A model generated the notes under the pieces. It saw nothing but the letters and a program-made list of their open reading frames with translations, ran no database searches and was not told where the DNA came from. A stretch of 64,000 bases of DNA from Mytilus galloprovincialis (taxonomy: Eukaryota; Mollusca; Bivalvia; Mytilida; Mytilidae). The stretch covers positions 84,044,916 through 84,108,915 of the forward strand of contig NC_134840.1 in the NCBI RefSeq assembly GCF_965363235.1, written 5' to 3'. Position numbers and translations under genes: made by a program. Shown here in pieces: positions 7,802 to 54,842 of the stretch (position 1 is the first letter of the stretch; every line of letters starts with the position of its first letter).

Positions 7802-10800
7802 CTGAAAAAGTTTAAGAATAATTTGTGAATTTTATATATGCAGTTTCACTATTGAAAATAAATAATGTAATTTTTCAATCAAATTTAACTTTTAAAAAAT
7901 CCTGAAAGAAAAAACACAACACTATCATATTTGCTGAAATCACAAATTTCACCTGATTTGTCATAGTTGTACTGAAAAAAGACTTCATATACAAACTTCT
8001 AAAATGCATTTCCATCAATAGAAAAGAAACTATGAAAGTTCAAACTACCTGAACATGGAATAATCCGAATAAGAACTAGCAATTTAATAAACAATTCCAT
8101 TCTTCAAAATTATGTATGGTTTTCATTTGCCAAAATTTTGGGACATTTGCAATTTGTAGCTTTTTTGTTGATGATTATAAAATTAAGTCAGTCTGTTTCT
8201 TTTATGCTTACATGTTCAAATTAAAGATCAATATATAACTAATTATGTATTTTTAGACTAAATTTCCAACATGCGAAAAAATCTGTTCCCCAAAATCAAC
8301 TGATCAACCCATCAGTATCATTACCATAACAATATAATATCATCAAAATGACAAAGATATAAATATAAAACTATATATTGGCAACTCTCTGTTAACGTCA
8401 GAAACTATATTTAATCAGTTGATAAAAAAAATGTTCACATATATCAAACATTTACTATGTAATAGTTCCTGTTATAACCATAAGCTATAATCATGATTCA
8501 TCTTAAAATCATAACATCTGGCAACTTCAAACATGACATTATATGGAGGTAATGAAAAGATGAAAAATTATCAAATCAGCAAACGTTCTAGCTATATAAA
8601 ATGAAATCATTTCAACACAAACATTCTTTTAAGGCCTTCTTACTTTATGCATACTCTTGAAATAATATATTTTGCAAAAATCAATCTGTTAATGTTAATA
8701 ATTCGGGTGAATACTTAAAGTGATAATCACTAATATTACTACAGTCCAGGTGAGCTGGAAGTGAAATTACTAAGATCTTTAGTCCAGGTAAGCTGAAAAT
8801 AATTTTCCCCAAATAAATGTATTATAAAAGTTATGAACAACCAACATATTTTTGGAAGAGGGCTATTCATATTACAACATTAACAATTTTTATATGTTTT
8901 AACAACAATTAACAATAATAAGAGTGGTTGGATATATGTTTTCAACCTAAACAGCAAATGAAACAGCATTAGACAACGTTCTGCGTGATCTGTAGTGACC
9001 CTGTTGCAAGGCAAAATTTTCCACCTTCCAAGTACCCTTATGTTCCAGTGGCAGACAAAATTTCCTGCCATTCATTAAGGTCAACCTACATTGTAGAACA
9101 TTCCTATTGCAGTTATTGCTTATTCGTTCTGAATATGCATGAAATATTTGCCACTGGACATGAAGCAAAAATAATCAATCTTGGACATTCTAACTTGCTT
9201 TACAGTAGGTTGAAGAAAAATACGAATAAATCCTACATTCAATTCAGATAAAAATACTAGGTAAGTGATAGACCTTACTAAAACAAAGATTTAATAGACA
9301 CAGGAAAATATTTGAAAAAGGGTAGGTAAGAAATCATTCTTTAGGTAATAAAAGATGGTTGAAAGGGAAAGGCAAGTTTTACACATGGTATATAATAAGA
9401 TTGCCTGATGTTGAATACAGATGTAGTTGTTGAAAAAAAATTAAAGCAAAAACCATTCTAGTGTTAACATTTTTCTTACACATTAAATTTCATTAAGAGC
9501 TTTTCAAAGAAGGGGGTTAGAACAGTATTTCTCTGGCAAAACAGGAGACTACCTGAATTCCTCATCAGAAACTTGGGTTTCAACACAGGAATTTTTCTTA
9601 AAAATATCTCTTGAAGTTTTAACATCAAAGAAAATAAGTTAACACATACATGGTTTTTGATGTAAAAGGAATACCAATGGGAGAATATCAGTAATAGGTT
9701 TCAATACCTGTTCATGCTATAAACGTGGAGATTTCTATATTTTGTGAAATATAAGTCTATGTTGTGATTGCCTATTTGTGAAGTTTGGTTCATTCAATGG
9801 GGCACTTTTAATGATGCAACTGTATAAAGCAATTGACATGGCAACTACAACAGAACTGGAAAAAACCATGATGTTCGAAAATTATAAATCAAATTCAATT
9901 CAATTCAAAGTTTTTGGAGATTGAGATAAACAAGAATGTGTCCACAGTACACGGATGCCCCACTCGCACTATCATTTTCTATGTTTAGTGGACCGTGAAA
10001 TTGGAATAAATTCTCTAATTTGGCATTAAAATTAGAATAATCTTATCAAAGGGAACATGTATACTAAGTGTCAAGTTGATTGGACTTCTACTTTATCAAA
10101 AACTACCTTGACCAAAAACTTTAACCTGAAATTTGCACTATCATTTTCTATGTTCAGTGAACCGTAAAATTGGGGTCAAAACTCTAATTTGGCATTTAAA
10201 TTAGAAAGATCATATCATAGGGCACATGTATACTAAGTTTCAAGTTGATTGGACTTCAACTTCATCAAAAACTACCTTGACCAAAAACTTTAACCTGAAG
10301 CGGGACAGACGGACGAACGAACGAACGGACGAACAGACGAACAGACGGACGAACGGACGCACAGACCAGAAAACATAATGCCCCTCTACTATCGTAGGTG
10401 GGGCATAAAAATATTTTTTAAAGCACTTCTATTTGCTAAACTGTTTGCCGTTTGTTCAAAGCTTTTCAATAAAAGTTTGTTTTTCTTAACGAAAAATTGA
10501 AACTATCGTGAAGTAAAACATCCTCAATAAAATCATTAAGAACAGTATGATTGAAACAGAATTTAATTGTAAATTTGTCACTATATTCTTCTTTGAAATG
10601 TTTTACTATTGTTACATAAATAGTTCTTAAAGTCATAACAATAAGGAGATAATATGGCCAATGAGACAGCGATCCACCAGATACCAAATGAAGGGGAAGT
10701 GGGCAAGTGTTAGCATTCTTATTTTTAAATTTTTTTCTTTTACAGAAAAATTCCCAAACATCATGGCTTTTACTTCTGAACAATATCAACACAGTGAAAT

Positions 10801-31800: not shown

Positions 31801-34800
31801 AGAACATAACTAAATAACAGGAGCAAATATTACATAGGTGTCATTTATGATCCAAATGTCCGAACTATCTTCCTGTTCCCTTTTCAGGAATGTGACCTCC
31901 GATTTACACTATTAAGCAGGTTTGTAATAACATGAGCAACACAAAGGGTGCCACATGTGGAGCAGGATTTGCTTACCCTTCGGGCGCACCTGAGATCAGC
32001 CCTAGTTTTTGGTGTTGCTAAGTTTTATTTTCCTATGTTATGTTTTGTGTACGTCTATTGTTTGTCTTTTTCTTTTGTTGCCATGGCGCTGTCAGTTTAT
32101 TTTTTATCTTTGAGTTTGAATGTCCGTCTGGTATCTTTCCCCCCTCTTTTTTAAATACAATATTATTTAATACCTTTTTGAACTTTTTCAGTAAAAGTCT
32201 TTCTGTGTCTTCATATTGTTTTTGTAACTTCATATCTTCATTAATTATTGCAACACTGAAAAATAAAACATCAATATAATTATATAATAGTAAAAACAAG
32301 ATGTAGAATAAGTATCAGTAGGACATCATGGCCAAATTGTTTGTTTGTTTGTTTGTTAACTCTATAAATATAAATTTATAAATGTAACCTGTATCCTAAA
32401 TTATTACAGGAAAAGTTCTAGCACTTTTATAATTATAAAACTTTACTCAATATTGGGAGTACAAAATGTGTACTCAAAATACCAAATCCAGTATATTGAT
32501 TGGTTGACTTCTGATTCTGGGCTTATCTTACTTTATTTTGGCCTTTTTAACTTTTTTGGATTCCAGCGTCACTGATGAGTCTTATGTAGACGAAACGCGT
32601 GTCTGGCGTATATACAAAATTTAGTCCTGGTATCTATGATGAGTTTACTTATATGTTTTGAGGGTGTGATAAATGTGTTTTGAGTGTAAATACAGAAGTA
32701 TTTTTATTATAAGTTAATACTTTACCCCTTTTTTCTCAATGCTTCATTTTGTCTGAGTTTATTTGCTAACTGGTCACTTAATTGTCTTTCTTCTGCTTCT
32801 AACTTTGCCTTTGAATCCTCATATGTTTGTAAGCTCTGTGTCAAAAAATAATAGCAATATAGGGTGCTATAAACAGTTTCGTATAAAAAACTAGGGGTAA
32901 TTCCCCAACTAAAAATAGACATGAAGGGAAGTCCCTTTTTATCAACATAATTGGTGAAAAAGTATCATGTTTTTTGTATTTGGTTGTAAAGATATGTTAA
33001 TTAACTTCAATTAAAGCAGGTTGAATGATTAAAATAATTTAAAAAATTAGATTAAATATACATGTTTTGAGGGGAGACAACACTGTAAACAGTCTGTTTT
33101 TTTGGCAGTGAAAATTGAAAACTTATTTGCAGCCACTGTAGCTATTTTCGGAGCAGGCGAACGTATCCTGAAGCATGAATTTTTTGAAAGACCAGGTAAA
33201 AATCTATGAAATTCATACAACTTTGATTATGAAAAATGTGCAGGTATCATGTCTTCAGGGGTGTGCACATGACCTGATTTCAGGTTTTTTAAGCTTAAAT
33301 TAGGCAATGTTTTTCCCAGTTTCTCTGGATAAAACTTTTTTATACTATTAAAAGTACACTTTTTTTTTATTTCATTATAAATTAGAGAACATTCTGATTC
33401 CAGTGATATCTAGTTTTATACAAGTATCTTTATTAATCAGTCCACCACTAAGGGTCACTTATACATGGTCCCTCAAAATATGACGTCATAGAAAAAAACT
33501 GTTGATTGCACCCATAATAATAGCATTAGAGATTAAATGTATGTATTATCTCCCTTTTAATCTTCCGGTAAGGAGTAACCTAAATTGTAAAAATCTAACA
33601 GAGCTTGATTAAAAAAAAATATCACTGTATCACATACCTTGAAAGGCTTGTCAGTGGTTGACGTTTGTTTATGTGGTTCATATGTGTTTTCCATTCCAAT
33701 ATAAATTAGACCGTTGGTTTTCCTGTTTAAATGGTTTTACACTTGTCATTTTTGGGGCCCTATGTAGATTGTTGTTCAGTGTGAGCCAAGGCTCTGTGTC
33801 GAAGGCAGTACTTTGACCTACAACCATTTGCTTTGATGGAGAGTTGTCGCCATTGGTACTTATACCACATCTTCTTTGTCAAAGCAAAGTTGAATTATAG
33901 TCTTTTACATTATACAAATTTTCTTTCTATCATTTCCTTTTTATTATTTGTAGGGAATTGATGGAGCTATATAGAAAACACCTTACCTTTCTCACAGCAT
34001 CTAATTGGCCTTCATTGTCTACCAACTTTTCATGAATAAGATCTAATTCCCTAGAAATAAAAATATGAATATTGCAATTGTTAAATAATTTCAACAATTA
34101 AATTTCAGCTGCCTGACATGTTAAAAATTCCTTTAATTCTGATGGTTCAAAAAACACATTTTTGTATTTCAAAATTTAGAGGTACCTTACTTTAATCATT
34201 ACTTTAGTGACAAAGAACAAATTGAAATGTTGGAAGGGAGCTTTCTTCTCTCAATTCAAATATTACTGGTACATATCTTTTTCGAAGGATTATATTTTTT
34301 ATAGCATGAATTCCTTTTTTATAGTATGAATTTTCATGTCAATTGTTAAGTTACCAAGTACTATACAACAACTTACTTTTTCATAACAACATTCTCTTCT
34401 TTCTGCATTTTTGTTTTTGAGTTTGTGTCTGACTGAAATAAGAAAAAAAAAAGATTATGTACTAGAATTGACAAATCAACAAAAAAATGGCCATGAAACT
34501 AACTGGCTTAACTGTGAGTGCTCTTAGATCAATACCTCGTGTTGTTTGTCTATTTTTGGAGTAATTTTTGGACCCTGTAATAATAGTGTCTATCTGATGA
34601 GTCAAACCTTTGACAAATGATTGATTGATTAATTGGTGTCTAACAACACTTTCAACAATATTGTGCTATTTCATGGCAGTCAGTTTTATTGGTGGAGGAA
34701 GTTGGAGTGCCAGGAGAGAATCACCAACCCCTTTGACAATTGATTTTTATAGTTTATTCTTATGTTGTACTACAAAACTTTTATCTTAGGTTAGAGAAGG

Positions 34801-37800
34801 GTTGACAGCTCACAAACATTCCAACTCGCATCATTCATTATGTGCCTATCCTAATTCAGGAGCCTTTTATTCAGTGATTGTGGTCGGTTGTTGTCTGTCT
34901 TATTTGTATTTTGTTTGCTGATTTCCACATAAATCAGGCTGTTGGTTTTCTCTGTAGCATTGTTTAACATTTTGTCATGCTTGGGCTTCTTAAGTCTTAC
35001 TTTACCAGTTTCCCTCATATCTAAAGACCATACAACTACAGATGTTCATATCCTCCTTTTACGGTGAAAATTTGTCTTATTTTCATATACTTATTGTATA
35101 GCAAATAGCAGTATTGGTAACTATTTGACATGGACACTTACAACCAGTTGTTTAAGTTTCTATTTGACATGGACACTTACAACCAGTTGTTTAAGTTTCT
35201 ATTTGACATTGACACTTACAACCAGTTGTTTAAGTTATTTGACATGGACACTTACAACCAGTTGTTTAAGTTTCTATTTGACATGGACACTTACAACCAG
35301 TTGTTTAAGTTTCTATTTGACATGTACACTTACAACCAGTTGTTTAAGTTATTTGACATGGACACTTACAACCAGTTGTTTAAGTTATTTGACATGGACA
35401 CTTACAACAAGTTGTTTAAGTTTCTTTTTCTCATGTCTAGCTTCTGTTCTTTCATGAATCAAATCTTCTTTCAATTGTAAAATACCATCTTCTAAATCTA
35501 CAATCTGAAGACAAAGAAAAACTACAATTAAACACAAATCCTACAAACTTCTCAGAATCTCTATGATGATTGTAAGCACAAAAGCAATATTTATACATGA
35601 TGGTGTAGTAAGTTTTTTCAACGACCATAACTTTCAATGAGGTTCTTGTAGGGTTGGGAAGTATTTTTAATGTAATATTCTATGGTTTTGAATTAGAATA
35701 TATAGATGTGCTAAATGGCATTTTTACTTCTTTGAATGCCAGTGTTGAGGTTAATTATTATATAATGAAGAAGTTCATGATTAAGGTCAACACTTTTAGT
35801 GAAAGAGTAATACCTCATGGTCATGAAGGTTTGTTTGTCTATAAATATACTTATGTGTTTAGAAATATATATCAAAACCTTCATGTTTATATCCAAGTAG
35901 TTAGTACAAATATATGTCTTATACCTAATACATGGTCTTCTAATTTAACTTGTAAAGTCTCATTATTTTAACAGCTTTCAATATAAATTCTCTTCTTAGT
36001 TGAGTATGAAAGATTAAAAAAAAAGGACTGGAAAACTTGTGTTATAGCAAAAAGAAATAAATAAAAAAATAATTTAAGCATGAAACTTACGTTCTGGTTT
36101 GTCTGTCTCACTTGGTCTCTTGTTTCATTAAGAACAATCTGAAGTCTAAAATAAGATCATGACATGATATTATTCTATTTAAAAGGGTTTAAAAAAAAAC
36201 AAGAATGTGTCCATAGTACACGGATGCCCCACTCGCACTATCATTTTCTATGTTCAGTGGACTGTGAAAATTGGGGTTAAACCTTTAATTTGGAATTAAA
36301 ATTAGAAAAATCATATCATAGGGAAAATGTGTACTAAGTTTCAAGTTGATGTAACTTTAACTTCATCAAAAACTACCTTGACCAAAAACTTTAACCTGAA
36401 CTTCACACTATCATTTTCTATGTTCAGTGGACCACGAAATTGGGGTCAAAACTATAATTTGGCATTAAAATTAGAAAGATCATATCATGGGGAACATGTG
36501 TACTAAGTTTCAAGTTGATTGGACTTCAACTTCTTCAAAAACTACCTTGACCAAAAACTTTAACCTGAAGCGAACGGACGCAGACGGACGAACGAACGGA
36601 GGCACAGACCAGAAAACATAATGCCCCTCTACTATCATAGGTGGGGCATAAAAATCGCAGTCAAAGTTTTTCAACCCTTTAAAATTACTAAAATAAGCAT
36701 TCAATACTTATAATTACATTTGTTTGATAGGATCACGAAAACATGATTTTTATCAAGTTTTTCTTTTTACCTGTGAACTTTATTGTTGAAGCTCATGTCA
36801 GCATGAATGTTACATTTCATTTTGAAATGAAGGTCAATTTCAGAATGACATGAGATTGCTGTTAGCCAATCAAAATAGCGTATTATTACAAAACATACAT
36901 GAAATGTAATTATAATTAAACTTACCCAGCTTTCTCTGCCATTTTCTCATTAAGTTCTTGAATGATATCTTCATGTTCCTTTGATGCTGAAATTCTTTCT
37001 GGCCTGAAAGAAATACATTTATTTCTTTATAATTTCTATACACAATCTTACATCTTAAAAAAGACATTTCAGGCATTTTCTCAATGGCAGTAAAATGGAC
37101 CTGTACCAAGCATTTTTAATGGTAAATCAACTTTGGCTGTTTTGGCCAACTGGTGATTTGAAATAATGATGGATAGCTGCTTAGCTCAGCGGCAAATTAC
37201 ATGCATATTGAGGACAAAAATAAGTAAATGTAATATGAATATTAACCCTGCTTGTTATTTGACTGACATGCTAGTTCACAAGGTAACATTATGCAGGAAG
37301 AAATGCACCCAATCCACATTATTCTGACTCCAAGCTGACCAGTAATTGCTCATACTCCTTAATGCTGTGTGCTTAGCAGAAAAGCATCAAATATCAATTT
37401 TAAAACCCTTTGGTTCTGTCACCTCCCATACTAGAGGCATGCTGCAAAAAAATAATTTTATCAAAATTTAAAATGCTACATTTGTTTTTGTGACAACTGT
37501 CTTGATGTATAAATTTAAAAACATCACAAAAAATTCAGAATTTAAAGTATCTCTAATGAAATTAAATGCAGCTGATCAGTTGCAATAAAAGCCAGTAAAC
37601 ATGAATGGTTTATGTTTTAAGTCTTGTAAGGTCTAGAAAGTCAAACTTACAGTAAAGTACTATAATCACCCTCCAGGTCATGTTGTCTCTCCTCTAGATA
37701 TTTTATATTGTTATTTATAGATTCTAACTTCTTCTTTAAATTGTCTAAAGCTTCAGCATTGTCTTGTCTGGCTGAATATACAGCTTCTACAATCATAAAA

Positions 37801-42407: not shown

Positions 42408-42977
42408 GCACTTGTTTCTGTCAATGTGGGGTTTACTATCCACACCCGTACAAAAAATCTTTCGTACGTGTGTGGATAGTAAACGCCAAATGTAGGACAG
42501 AAAGTCACAGGATAAAAAAGTCACAATTCATTTTTTCTGACTATTTTCTTTGAATAAAAAACGCTTTTTTCTACAAAAATAATTTTGTATTAAAATCTAA
42601 CTTTGTAAACAAAATTTATCAAAAAAATATCAAAGTAAATCAAATAATTGTTAAAAAAACTAAATATCAAAGTGGCTTGGCACTTAAATGGCTTCATGGT
42701 GCCAAGAAGTCTTTCTTTTGCATGATTAAAATTAAATAAATCTTCATTTTTCAAGTATAATGACACATTTCCTAAACGTTAATGTGAATATATGTATTAA
42801 AAAGTAAATATTTCAAGATATTTCTCTTATATATTCAAACAATTGTCAACATATTATTTGTGACTTTTTGTCCTTTGACTTTTTGTCCTACCACATTTGT
42901 GACTTTATGGCCTTTGACTTTTTGCCCTGTGACTTTCTGTCATTTTACCTAAACCCCACATTGACAGAAACAAGTGC
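42408..42977. mobile_element. 570-bp MITE just upstream of ccdc175
   Basis: Perfect 28-bp inverted ends, GCACTTGTTTCTGTCAATGT + GGGGTTTA at 42408-42435 and its reverse at 42950-42977. A second inner hairpin lies at about 42430-42475 (TTTACTATCCACAC / GTGTGGATAGTAAA). Near the right end are about five copies of TGACTTTTTGTCC-like units (42860-42941), with the opposite strand of the motif near the left end (GGACAGAAAGTCAC). No clear target duplication. It begins about 190 bp before the ccdc175 start codon. Confidence 0.85.
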
Positions 42978-43060: not shown

Positions 43061-44580
43061 TTAAAAGAGGGACGAAAGATACTGGCGAAGGGACAGTCAA
43101 ACTCATAAATCGAAAATAAACTGACAACGCCAAGGCTAAAAATGAAAAAGACAATCAGACAAACAATAGTACACACAACATAGAAAACTAAAGAATAAGC
43201 ATCAATAACCCCATTCAGTAAAAACTGGGGGTGATCTCGGGTGCTCCGGAAGGGAAAACACTGAGATACTGCTCCACATGTGGCATCCGTCGTGTTGCTT
43301 ATGTTATAACAAATTATCCGGAAAATAGTCTTATTCGGTAGGTCACATTCATGAAAGGGAAGGCCGGGATTGTAGTTACGACGTAAGGAACATATCCGAT
43401 ATCATTTATGAAACGGTTATTCCATAACGGTCAACCACCTCGTGATGGCGTCCGTAAAATTTACGAAGATTCACCAATTAGATCTCTTGGTTTAATAGCT
43501 TCCTTGTGAGCAGCAACCCTCTATCAAGAAAATCATGATAGGAAACGCAAGCACGGGAATATCGTATCAATTTGGCGATATATACCCCGTATGTAGGTGC
43601 TGATGGAATGTTGCAACTTAGAAATGGAAAGTTCCCAATTGGAAAGCTGAAATCATCTTTTTTATCGTAAAGTTTTGTTTTCAACCGACCGTCAATTTCT
43701 AGATGTAATTCAAGATATGAGGCCGACTTAACTGTATCTGTTGTATCCTTTATCTCTAGTTCGATTGGATAGATGCGATCAACATAGTCACCAAATTTTG
43801 AATTATTCAGTGAAAGAACATCATCTATATTGCGGAAAGAAGATTTAGAGGATAATGCTAACTTCTTATCTTTCTTCCTAAGAAGTTCCCGTGTGAAGTT
43901 AGCCTCATAATAATAAAGAAACAAGTCGGCAAGAAGAGTGGCGCAATTGGTTCCCATTGGAATGCCGAGAGTCTGTTGAAAAACACGTCCTCCGAACGTG
44001 ACAAATATGTTGTCAATCAAGAAATCAAGCATTTTGATAATGTCAGTTTCAGAGAATGTTTTGTTTGAATCAGAGTGATCCTTTACAAAGTAGGATTTAT
44101 CCCTCCCTAAGACAAGAAACTTGTATCTACGTTGGCCATTCTTTTTTATGAAACAAAGCAATGTCAACTCTTTCAATTTGTCTTTTAGTTTGGAATGTGG
44201 AATACTTGTGTAAAGTGTAGAAAAGCCATAAATGTTTTAATACTATTGCAAGATGAAAGAGAGTTAGATTGTATGTACTATAAAATATCTTCGGATTTTT
44301 GAAGTATCTTCATCTGATTCACTCCATCTCTAAATAGGCAGTTTCACAATAACTTTGAAGCCCGTCTTCGATTGCTGATAAAATATATGTTAATAATTTA
44401 GAAAGAGGTTCCGTGGAGCATTTGAAAGACCCAGCAATATACCGTTGTTTGTAAGGACACTTATGTAGTTTAGGTATACAATATTCTCCAAAGTAGGCCC
44501 ATTTTAGACTTTTTGTCAAAATATGTCGATTTTGTGCAATTTTCAGACCTAAAAGCTTTAAGAAAACTTTGGCCGCCATC
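43061..44580 (-). mobile_element. Decayed Penelope-like reverse transcriptase copy
   Basis: The minus strand encodes reverse transcriptase pieces: CIPKLHKCPYKQRYIAGSFK upstream (near 44319-44579) and, in a 232-residue stretch at 43478-44176, LGIPMGTNCATLLADLFLYY, the IDDVLSLNNSKFGDYVDRIY catalytic region, and NIPSAPTYGVYIAKLIRYSR. The PKLHK block before the palm motifs points to the Penelope-like class. The copy is 5'-truncated and broken in a few places, so it is a fossil. Non-coding 3' sequence runs on to about 43061 and matches the solo fragments at 1018-1130, 1783-1886 and 31930-32155. Confidence 0.7.
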
Positions 44581-47150: not shown

Positions 47151-48854
47151 ATGGCCTCATCAGTCAAACAACTTTGTACAATTTGCAATGACGATGGAAT
47201 CTCCAATTCAGCAGTCATCTGGTGCACAGAATGCGAGGTTTTATTTTGTGCAGACTGTGAAAAACCTCACAGCAAGTCACATCTGTCTAAAAACCATAAA
47301 ACCATGTCAGCTGATGATTACCAAAAGTTACCTAAATTCATGCAAGAAATAAGTAGCCAGTGTCAAGACCACAAGAAGAAGTTTGAACTTTACTGTTCTT
47401 TCCATGCCTGTCCATGCTGTGTTCAGTGTGTCACTGATAAACACAATAGTTGTCAAGAAATGAAACCTTTGTCAGATATCCTTCAGCAAGTCAAATCATC
47501 TGCCTCAGTGCAACTTTTTGAAAAAGATTTAAAGATTGTGAAGGAAAACATAGATGCAGCCATAAAGTATCTGCAAACCAGGATCACTACCTCCGATACC
47601 CAGAACACCATAGCAATTGAGAAAATACGGTATACGAGGAAGTCGATTGATGATTACTTAAACAAATTAGAACAAGACTTACTTAATGACCTAGAGTCTA
47701 AACATTCACAGCTTAAATCAACCATGGCCAGTATCATACAACAAATGGAACAGCGGGCCAGTCAGATAAACCAAATGCAGAGTCAGTTTTCCGAAACGAC
47801 ACAATATACTACAGAGCTACAAATGTTTATTGCTCTAAGAGAGATTGAGAAAATTACATCACAAACGACAAAATACATAGAAGATTTAGAAAGTGGAGAT
47901 CACTTCATCGAAAAAAATCTAGAGGTCAACCTTTCATCTGCTCTACAATCTATTTTACATGATGTCAATTCATTTGGAAATATTAATATCAATACTACCA
48001 CTTCTACTCTAAAATTAAAGGCGGGAAGAAAAGATCAAGCCCAGCACATGATTCCAAAAGTTCCTGGAGTGGAACAAATAAAACCATCCTTGTTGACAAG
48101 ACTGACAATTCCAAAAGATATAAAGTCTTTAAATATATTTGCCTGTCTTATATTACCTGATGGTAAATTTATAATACTTGATAACAACAAAACCCAACTA
48201 TTGTTGTTCAGTAATGATGGCATTTTTATCAGAAAAGTAGTAACATTCACAGAATGTCCATTTGATGATTGCCTTGTCATGAATAATACTGTGGCTGTCG
48301 CATTAGGACGAGTGACAGTCCTGGTGGATGTAAATAGAAGTAAAATTATTCAATCAATTCAACTTGATCATGGCTGTTATGGAGTAGCAAGTGATGGTAA
48401 AACTTTGGTAATCAGTGATAGTAACAGCCAGTGTACTACAGTGAATCTGAGTGACATGTCTCATACAATCATAGAAGGAATGAGAGGAGTATATTGTATT
48501 TCATTATTCCAAGGAAATATCTATGGTACCAATAACAGTGCAAATAAAGTTTGCTGTTACAAAGTTACAGGAGAACTTCTGTGGACATTTCAGCATCAAG
48601 ACATTGGCGAACCACGAGGACTTGCATTAGACAAAAATAGTTTTGTTTATATAGCTTCTTCTGTAAACAACAGTATCGTGGTAGTATCACCAGATGGTAA
48701 AACCAGTAAGACAATACTATCAGATGCTGATGGAATCAAACAACCTTATGCTATAGACATCAACAGAGAAACTGGATTGATGATAGTGTCAAGTCATATA
48801 AGTGGTGAGAAAAATGAAAAATCATATCAGACATGTTTTGTTTATAAAGTTTGA
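47151..48854 (+). CDS. B-box / coiled-coil / NHL-propeller protein, copy A (567 aa)
   Basis: Intact intronless frame. Residues 9-49 form a first B-box (C9, C12, C25, C28, C33, C36, H40, H49); 71-101 a second (C71, H74, C82, H85, C90, C93, H98). About 120-275 is coiled coil. The last ~250 residues look like an NHL-type beta-propeller (GYGVASDGKTLVISD-like blades, PRGLALDKNSFVYIAS, NNSIVVVSPDGK). There is no RING domain, so ubiquitin-ligase activity cannot be assumed; it may act as a scaffold, as for RING-less TRIM relatives. Bivalves have many such genes, often discussed with immunity (family knowledge). The start follows an acceptor CAG at 47130-47132, so a 5' UTR exon lies upstream. AATAAA follows at about 48880. 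Paralogue of 53133-54842, about 88% identical by my count. Confidence 0.9.
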   Translation: MASSVKQLCTICNDDGISNSAVIWCTECEVLFCADCEKPHSKSHLSKNHKTMSADDYQKLPKFMQEISSQCQDHKKKFELYCSFHACPCCVQCVTDKHNSCQEMKPLSDILQQVKSSASVQLFEKDLKIVKENIDAAIKYLQTRITTSDTQNTIAIEKIRYTRKSIDDYLNKLEQDLLNDLESKHSQLKSTMASIIQQMEQRASQINQMQSQFSETTQYTTELQMFIALREIEKITSQTTKYIEDLESGDHFIEKNLEVNLSSALQSILHDVNSFGNININTTTSTLKLKAGRKDQAQHMIPKVPGVEQIKPSLLTRLTIPKDIKSLNIFACLILPDGKFIILDNNKTQLLLFSNDGIFIRKVVTFTECPFDDCLVMNNTVAVALGRVTVLVDVNRSKIIQSIQLDHGCYGVASDGKTLVISDSNSQCTTVNLSDMSHTIIEGMRGVYCISLFQGNIYGTNNSANKVCCYKVTGELLWTFQHQDIGEPRGLALDKNSFVYIASSVNNSIVVVSPDGKTSKTILSDADGIKQPYAIDINRETGLMIVSSHISGEKNEKSYQTCFVYKV

Positions 48855-53132: not shown

Positions 53133-54842
53133 ATGGCCTCATCAGTCAAACAACTTTGTACAATTTGCAATGACGATGGAATCTCCAATTCAGCAGTCAT
53201 CTGGTGCACAGAATGTGAGGTTTTATTTTGTGGAGACTGTGAAAAACCTCACAGCAAGTCGAGACTGTCTAAGAACCATAAAACCATGACAGCTGATGAT
53301 TACCAAAAGTTACCTACATTCATGCAAGAAATAAGTAGCCAGTGCCAACACCACAAGAAGAAGTTTGAACTTTACTGTTCTTTCCATGCCTGTCCATGCT
53401 GTGTTCAGTGTGTCACTGATAAACACAAGATGTGTCAAGAAATGAAACCTTTGTCAGATATCCTTCAGCAAGTCGAATCATCTGCCTCAGTACAACTTTT
53501 TGAAAAAGATTTAAAGGATGTGAAGGAAAACATAGATACAGCCATACTGTATCTAAAAACCAGGATCACTACCACCGATACGCAGAACACCAAAGCCATT
53601 GAGAAAATACGGTATATGAGGAAGTCGATTGATGATTACTTAAACAAATTAGAGCAAGACTTACTTAATGATTTAGAATCTAAATATTCAAAGCTAAAAT
53701 CAAATATGGCCAGTATCATGCAACAAATGGAACAGCGGGCCAGTCAGATAAACCAAATGCAGAGTCAGTTTTCCAAAACGACACGATATACTACAGAGCT
53801 ACAAATGTTTATTGCTCTAAGAGAGATCGAGAAAATTACATCACAAACGACAAAATATATAGAAGATTTAGAAAGAGGAGACCACTTCATTGAAAAAAAT
53901 CTAGAGGTTAACCTTTCATCTGCTCTACAATCAATTTTAAAAGATGTCAAATCATTTGGAAATATCAATATCAATACCACCACTTCTACTCTCAAAATAA
54001 AGACAGGAAGAAAAGATCAAGCCCAGCATTTGCTTCCAAAAGTTCCTGGAGTGGACCAAATAAAACCATCCTTGTTGACAAGACTGACAATTTCAAAAGA
54101 TATAAAGTCTTTAGATATAACTGCCTGTCTTATATTACCTGATGGTAAATTTATAATACTTGATATCAACAAAAACAAACTACTGTTGTTCAAAAATGAT
54201 GGCATTTTTATCAGAAAAGTAGTAACATTCACAGAGCGTCCATGTGATGATTGCCTAGTCATGAATAATACAGTGGCTGTCGCATTAGGACGAGGAAACC
54301 AGACAGTCCTGGTGGATGTAAATAGAAGTAAAATTATTCAATCAATTAAACTTTCTCACAACTGTTTTGGAGTAGCAAGTGATGGTAAAAATTTGGTCAT
54401 CAGTGATAGTCGCAGCCAGTGTACTACAGTGAATCTGAGTGATATGTCTCATACAATCGTAGAAGGAATGAGAGGAGTGTTTCGTATTTCATTATTCCAA
54501 GGAAAAATCTATGGTACCAATAACGTTGCAAATAAAGTTTGCTGCTACAAAGCTACTGGTGAACCTCTCTGGACATTTCAGCAACAAGACATTGCCAGAC
54601 CACGAGGACTTACATTAGACAAAAATGGGTTTGTTTATGTAGCTTCTGCTGGAAACAACAGTATCGTGGTAGTATCACCAGATGGTAAGGTCTGTAAGAC
54701 AATACTATCAGATGCTGATGAAATCAAAGATCCTTATGCTATAGACATCAACAGAGAAACTGGATTGATGATAGTGTCAAGTGATATAAGTGGTGAGAAA
54801 AATGAGAAATCATATCAGACATGTTTTGTTTATAAAGTTTGA
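53133..54842 (+). CDS. B-box / coiled-coil / NHL-propeller protein, copy B (569 aa)
   Basis: Same plan as copy A, intact, all zinc ligands of both B-boxes kept. It differs at about 66 residues and has a two-residue insertion (GRGNQTV versus GRVTV). Changes are spread over the coiled coil and propeller, many of them charge changes (for example K/L, I/K, E/R). In the first ~190 codons I count about 20 replacement against about 12 silent changes, so protein change is fast for such a recent pair. The poly(A) signal of copy A is AATAGA here (about 54876). Likely functional, since a decaying gene of this divergence would be expected to have stops. Confidence 0.9.
   Translation: MASSVKQLCTICNDDGISNSAVIWCTECEVLFCGDCEKPHSKSRLSKNHKTMTADDYQKLPTFMQEISSQCQHHKKKFELYCSFHACPCCVQCVTDKHKMCQEMKPLSDILQQVESSASVQLFEKDLKDVKENIDTAILYLKTRITTTDTQNTKAIEKIRYMRKSIDDYLNKLEQDLLNDLESKYSKLKSNMASIMQQMEQRASQINQMQSQFSKTTRYTTELQMFIALREIEKITSQTTKYIEDLERGDHFIEKNLEVNLSSALQSILKDVKSFGNININTTTSTLKIKTGRKDQAQHLLPKVPGVDQIKPSLLTRLTISKDIKSLDITACLILPDGKFIILDINKNKLLLFKNDGIFIRKVVTFTERPCDDCLVMNNTVAVALGRGNQTVLVDVNRSKIIQSIKLSHNCFGVASDGKNLVISDSRSQCTTVNLSDMSHTIVEGMRGVFRISLFQGKIYGTNNVANKVCCYKATGEPLWTFQQQDIARPRGLTLDKNGFVYVASAGNNSIVVVSPDGKVCKTILSDADEIKDPYAIDINRETGLMIVSSDISGEKNEKSYQTCFVYKV

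Follow-up and report, generated by a model that had tools for sequence, protein, structure and literature searches.

A short hammerhead-bearing repeat in the genome of Mytilus galloprovincialis is, with a probability of about 0.78, a dead-end insertion of 126 bp of a non-LTR retrozyme, copied by the reverse transcriptase (RT) of a Penelope-like element (PLE) that would have started beside a hairpin shared by both elements. The repeat is located in the window, the whole stretch of 64,000 nucleotides that was analysed, where it comprises the following features:

32526-32651, + strand: 5'-truncated single-unit retrozyme fragment of family A, 125 nt of a 364-nt unit, with the fixed 3' end of the family (genome matches; anchored extension on a genomic unit)
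32566-32609, + strand: type I hammerhead with minimal helix III (Rfam RF00163, 29.4 bits for a gathering score of 34, E 0.0035 over the window)
32572-32603, + strand: catalytic core (CTGATGA, stem II, GAAA, minimal helix III, GTC) with the predicted cut between 32603 and 32604 (sequence; 700 genome matches, control 0)
32604-32651, + strand: the 48 nt from the cut site to the fixed 3' end, including a tail (TGGTATCT...TTTA) that resembles the PLE tail

A search of the 1.385-Gb genome with a 241-bp query around the hammerhead gave at least 41 matches (40 scored of 2192 candidates), which, the window itself apart, all fell inside 32525-32661; anchored extension against a real genomic unit delimited the fragment to its 126 bp. 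Thirty loci aligned from this query, those on the other strand being left unturned, had a common 3' end and variable 5' ends, and some of them were tandem. The unit of this family A measured 364-366 bp in the tandem loci L034, L036, L044, and L073 (L045 repeats L044) and 351 bp in L082, and its exact 27-nt 3' end occurred 3655 times in the genome (1880 + 1775; control 0). A second family, B, displayed the same hammerhead core at a spacing of 354-358 bp in L101. Near 345-480 in L102 and L103, a third group was encountered, with the core CTGATGAGTTTTTCGTAGACGAAAC in a longer, related sequence without the hairpin, which runs past GTTTATTT into CCGGTATGTATT and represents another element with a related hammerhead. 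Metazoan non-LTR retrozymes are defined by a type I hammerhead in tandem non-coding repeats of about 150-450 bp, an organization that was found for the family, the window copy being a lone fragment of it; target-site duplications of more than 4 bp are included 'when present' in the literature, as far as its accessible text goes, and are thus not strictly defining. By its sequence, the window element would hence be of the same kind as the non-LTR retrozymes reported from Mytilus.

The way in which these elements are copied can be read from the anatomy of their insertions. The sample consisted of 52 of the 100 listed matches to the 3' end, in 50 loci (L039-L088) from the first part of one contig. 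At 35 of these 52 distinct sites the element stopped at the 3' end, and at the other 17 it continued into the next unit. Together with the window copy, the former gave 36 insertions spanning 27-709 nt, or 0.07-1.95 turns measured against the real unit, nine of which exceeded one turn. The fixed 3' end was situated 48 nt past the cut site. The latter was crossed by 32 of the 36 insertions (by 1 nt only in L063), and at most two 5' ends came within 1 nt of the cut itself, namely those of L063 (at 49) and L071 (at 47, only 41 by BLAST). Because the search pattern itself fixed the 3' end, this end was checked on loci chosen by similarity, of which 28 out of 30, the window's included, could be placed; 26 ended between -4 and +8 nt of the same point (12 of them exactly) and two continued. 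So retrozyme copying would start at one internal point, pass the hammerhead junction, and stop at scattered points. As the 5' ends almost never coincide with the cut, the copied RNA would have been ligated or uncut there, and as a cut linear RNA could give only 48 nt, the template would have been closed at the cut site, being either a circle or an uncut multimer. Unit identity within insertions was not in clear excess over that between insertions (seven of the nine multi-turn insertions compared, L051 and L067 being below the length limit; L047 aligned poorly), so that this comparison does not distinguish a circle from an uncut multimer.

Two PLE copies lie close to the retrozyme fragment:

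43062-44483, - strand: 5'-truncated PLE copy with an RT-domain open frame (43478-44176), ending at PLE position 422 (blastn to the genomic locus L089; RVT_1 match on a relative)
31846-32150, + strand: PLE 3'-end fragment, 78.5% identical to positions 102-421 of L089 (blastn, E 6e-70), which stops just before the shared hairpin, itself absent

The first of these is the copy at about 10 kb that the preliminary description had pointed out, its RT match being obtained on a genomic relative; the nearer fragment, 375 bp upstream of the retrozyme, had been missed. The PLE family had at least 150 scored matches among 48162 candidates, the window copy included, the others being 88-90% identical to it. 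The element measures about 3.4 kb, several pairs of RT matches lying 3345-3371 bp apart. The RVT_1 match on the genomic relative (residues 297-367, E 2.7e-6) reached 27.7 bits, 1.9 bits under the Pfam cut-off of 29.6, and N-terminal to it a weak GIY-YIG match was found (residues 135-172, E 0.026, 15.3 bits for a cut-off of 22.6). In addition, YIDD and GIPMG, which we take to be RT motifs, are visible in the open reading frame (ORF). The name PLE is therefore partly based on these motifs and on the tandem layout, both Pfam matches being under their curated cut-offs. The window RT fragment alone had no match in Pfam, the longer genomic piece being the one that gave RVT_1; its AlphaFold model was unusable (mean pLDDT 33.7), and PDB sequence searches returned nothing meaningful. 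The copies displayed 5' truncation and an internal start, as well as tandem or partial-tandem units with junctions in six of seven loci (L090-L093, L095, and L097; not L099). Insertions ended at PLE positions 420-426 in 23 of 24 loci (L105 had no match), the hairpin beginning at 425, and the two window copies ended at 421 and 422 by blastn to L089. Elsewhere in the window, two pieces resembling the non-coding part of the PLE (976-1105 and 1769-1884, - strand; 78.6% and 75.0% identical) do not reach its 3' end.

The sequence just beyond this common insertion end links both elements. A 66-nt segment of the PLE (ACCACTGGGTCGATG...CCCAGTAG) matched the beginning of the retrozyme unit at 83-84% identity (family A, E 2e-15), and the same hairpin was found in family B. 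It directly follows the insertion end, as TTTA-NN-ACCACTGGG in the PLE and family A and as TTTA-N-ACCACTGGG in family B, and was present in six of the seven PLE tandem junction loci, L099 being without it on the 5' side and L092 having lost part of it. When PLE and retrozymes were compared, the hairpin scored above all 300 shuffles. For family A, the 26-nt tail did so as well; its similarity to family B was marginal, the score being reached by 13 of 300 shuffles. The stretches flanking tail and hairpin had no clear similarity (scores reached by 22 to 276 of 300 shuffles). Genome-wide, with 0 matches for the control, 11812 copies of the 15-mer hairpin start, 2148 TTTANN junctions, 5092 family-B junctions, and 72 PLE junctions were counted. 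On contig C1 (433605-448319), 43 exact hairpin starts at 350-bp spacing constitute a long regular array whose hairpin-bearing unit is absent among the family-B and TTTANN junction matches listed for the same stretch.

The PLE and retrozyme hairpins fold alike (z -3.46 and -3.22), and in a set of 26 distinct copies (about 20 family-A-like, four of family B, and two of the PLE) 97.0% of cells were paired, against 40-48% for slid structures. Both-side, compensatory changes were found in 15 cells against 3.1 after shuffling, and the covariation score was 0.142 against 0.080, neither value being reached by any of 500 shuffles. The pairs with such changes numbered four (reached by 22 of 500 shuffles), and further pair types were not above shuffles (17 against 16.2; 209 of 500). 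As the collecting pattern fixes the outer ends, the outer helix is partly conserved by selection of the copies itself; the both-side changes sit in the inner helices, which this pattern leaves unfixed. Furthermore, a 174-bp unit corresponding to PLE positions 344-518 (tail, hairpin, and leader) is repeated about 5.5 times in L126 (C5:43627900-43629200), ending at PLE position 423, and constitutes a minimal PLE-derived repeat without hammerhead core. This array fits with tail and hairpin being sufficient for copying, or could alternatively result from an internal deletion followed by unequal exchange. No published account of a hairpin shared by a retrozyme and a PLE was found in the open-access literature searched.

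Tandem retrozyme genes are known to be transcribed into RNA that is cleaved to monomers by its hammerheads, the closure of these monomers into circles being most likely the work of a ligase. In the proposed mechanism, the PLE reverse transcriptase would dock on the 66-nt hairpin common to PLE and retrozyme, and copying, primed on nicked target DNA, would begin internally in the RNA, at the TTTA that immediately precedes the hairpin. From there, the enzyme would proceed backwards across the hammerhead site, either ligated or uncut, and halt at a random point, which would produce fixed 3' ends, ragged 5' ends, and tandem copies whenever it went round more than once. For the window copy, it would have stopped after 126 nt, whereby the ribozyme was kept and the hairpin lost. 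In the best reading, the template would be the circular retrozyme RNA; the start is only 48 nt from the 5' end of a cut linear RNA, so long copies would need a circle or a multimer. The neighbouring PLE family is the probable source of the reverse transcriptase.

Alternatively, the retrozyme may be copied by other machinery (a LINE, or satellite-type recombination with DNA circles), the shared hairpin then having another role, such as that of a promoter, or being a relic of common ancestry. This is unlikely, as a constant 3' end together with random 5' truncation characterizes target-primed reverse transcription and as 23 of 24 PLE loci have their insertion end at that very position with respect to the hairpin, although long regular arrays such as that of the 43 hairpin starts on contig C1 do exist and target-site duplications were not seen: in 36 pairs of flanks, the longest shared word averaged 5.39, against 5.26 after shuffling (the highest of 200 shuffles being 5.69). 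A promoter role would agree with the part of the hairpin that reads GGGTCGATGCC (columns 15-25 of A1), which resembles what we take to be the consensus of a Pol III B box and may act as such.

The ribozyme itself probably does not stem from the neighbouring PLE family. L089, with 2671 bp between two tandem PLE copies, contained neither a CTGANGR core nor a hammerhead match at E values up to 5, and the window fragment aligns over its whole length to the 364-bp retrozyme unit. A hammerhead belonging to the PLE itself, in a pLTR fragment, is thus very improbable here, despite the PLE fragment 375 bp away and the minimal type I hammerheads that PLEs of other animals carry (PMC7761336, in its accessible part). 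From the two origins that the preliminary description had considered, the retrozyme-type element was retained and the PLE was discarded, the ribozyme belonging to this element rather than to the host gene.

As far as the window copy itself is concerned, two probable exons define its surroundings:

32174-32255, - strand: probable host-gene exon, coiled-coil-like, flanked by AG/GT (reading of the sequence)
32726-32835, - strand: probable host-gene exon that, with the former, bounds the intron holding the fragment (reading of the sequence)

The splice-like signals and coiled-coil-like exons indicate that the fragment resides in an intron of a minus-strand gene, in antisense orientation, in agreement with what had been described before. 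Hence, any RNA cut by its ribozyme would have to be a + strand transcript of this intron, antisense to the host gene. It kept the hammerhead but not the 66-nt hairpin; a scan of the window with the hairpin model R1 found no hairpin, as would be expected of retrozyme and PLE pieces that all stop short of it. Being a 5'-truncated 126-bp monomer, the copy cannot form a circle alone. This rules out the circular RNA spanning repeat units that had been envisaged for this locus, and the copy is not expected to make a circle or to move again. There is no sign of a host function either. A working ribozyme that is retained to control an antisense RNA of the host gene, as its intact core and intronic position might indicate, is a most doubtful proposition, since an intact core was found by pattern in 10 of the 25 sampled copies that were long enough, the window copy included; intactness is therefore nothing special and no sign of selection, and the fragment is an ordinary dispersed repeat. 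A search of a phage collection with the fragment gave no match. Elsewhere in the window, dimers built of a similar 169-bp unit were noted at two places separated by 26 kb (9966-10299 and 36236-36569), along with two similar, apparently duplicated intronless reading frames (47151-48854 and 53133-54842), the first of which was scanned and gave a B-box match (TRIM-like). At 42423-42492, microRNA precursor models matched weakly on both strands, far below gathering, probably because of an inverted repeat.

As a sequence motif, the hammerhead at 32566-32609 is real. Its core reads CTGATGA-GTCT/TATGT/AGAC-GAAA-CGCGTG-TC on inspection, with a 4-bp stem II and a minimal helix III in which A-U and C-G close a GCGU loop; alternatively, helix III could be formed by pairing of this near-palindrome with a second molecule. 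All elements (CUGANGA, GAAA, and NUH) occur in type I order and RF00163 aligned over its full length, which bears out the core and minimal stem III proposed earlier. Similarly, the claimed pairing of stem I across the cut can be read as GCGTCA with TGGCGT. Self-cleavage of the window copy is predicted after C32603. The covariance-model match that had been anticipated was present, but its score was not high, as its 29.4 bits remained below the gathering score. This explains why the default scan of the whole window at that score did not list the hammerhead, and what is claimed here is therefore a motif within its element rather than an assignment by Rfam's curated threshold. The E value was 2.2e-5 in a 401-nt search, and in the search of the whole window the match was the best of six listed. 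Energy folding did not single out the motif (z = -0.32 and +0.34), the minimum free energy structure differing from the hammerhead fold. A chance match to a short motif, for which the Rfam score under gathering might plead, is practically out of the question and already refuted, given that CTGATGAN13GAAACGCGTGTC had 700 exact matches in the genome (364 + 336), against 0 + 0 for the reversed control, and that the 24-nt core with up to three mismatches occurred once in the window and in none of 100 window shuffles.

The window copy is ordinary, and its family bears on the questions of which enzyme moves animal retrozymes and why these have ribozymes and circles. PLEs have been considered a strong candidate only, because both kinds of element have type I hammerheads and tandem copies and because they co-exist (PMC7229834, in the text available). 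A shared hairpin at a shared insertion end, with compensatory changes, provides direct sequence evidence. Rather likely, mussel retrozymes and the PLE share one cis-acting RNA start signal, consisting of TTTA and the downstream 66-nt hairpin, with a circular or multimeric template, and PLEs spread animal retrozymes. As the signal lies beyond the start, the template would have to be circular or multimeric both to carry the signal and to be fully copied. If true, this would account for the retention of circles produced through hammerheads, a cut linear monomer yielding only 48 nt of cDNA, and the circle made by ribozyme and ligase would gain a purpose. Furthermore, the hairpin offers a short RNA on which binding and copying could be assayed.

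Compared with known systems, the minimal hammerheads of PLEs and Terminons are reportedly of type I with a minimal helix III and possibly dimeric; the motif described here has the same topology and minimal helix III, whereas it is situated in a non-coding retrozyme unit. Naiad-type PLEs are said to possess an N-terminal GIY-YIG domain, and the mussel ORF likewise has its weak GIY-YIG match before the RT, a likeness that does not establish membership. The non-LTR retrozymes reported from M. galloprovincialis comprise about 5000 type I hammerheads in two related families of non-coding repeats of 350-390 bp, a repeat of which self-cleaves at about 0.1 per min, and their circular RNA is abundant in the gonad (Cervera and de la Pena 2020, PMC7229834, as far as accessible). 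Likened by this description, the present families A (364-366 bp, one of 351 bp) and B (354-358 bp) share the type I hammerhead and the division into two families, whereas the window copy differs in being a 126-bp truncated monomer. New here, as deduced from genomic copies, would be the constant position of the 3' end, 48 nt beyond the cut, the ragged 5' ends, and the hairpin shared with the PLE, which the accessible part of that article does not describe. Lastly, the RT of an Anolis PLE starts inside its RNA, truncations revealed that RNA beyond the start is required, genomic insertions end at the start sites, and hammerhead cleavage is not needed in vitro (Frangieh et al. 2024, PMC11167929, in its available portion). 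Within that portion, the Anolis and mussel elements have tandem units, an internal start, the involvement of downstream RNA, and ends at the start in common, the mussel element being known through its sequence. In Anolis, however, a hammerhead is part of the PLE and the start is located within the ORF, 111-118 nt from its beginning, whereas in the mussel the start is immediately ahead of the 66-nt hairpin, which precedes the ORF, and no hammerhead was found in the PLE piece scanned (L089). The mussel data thus appear to fit the Anolis scheme, with the hairpin just downstream of the start.
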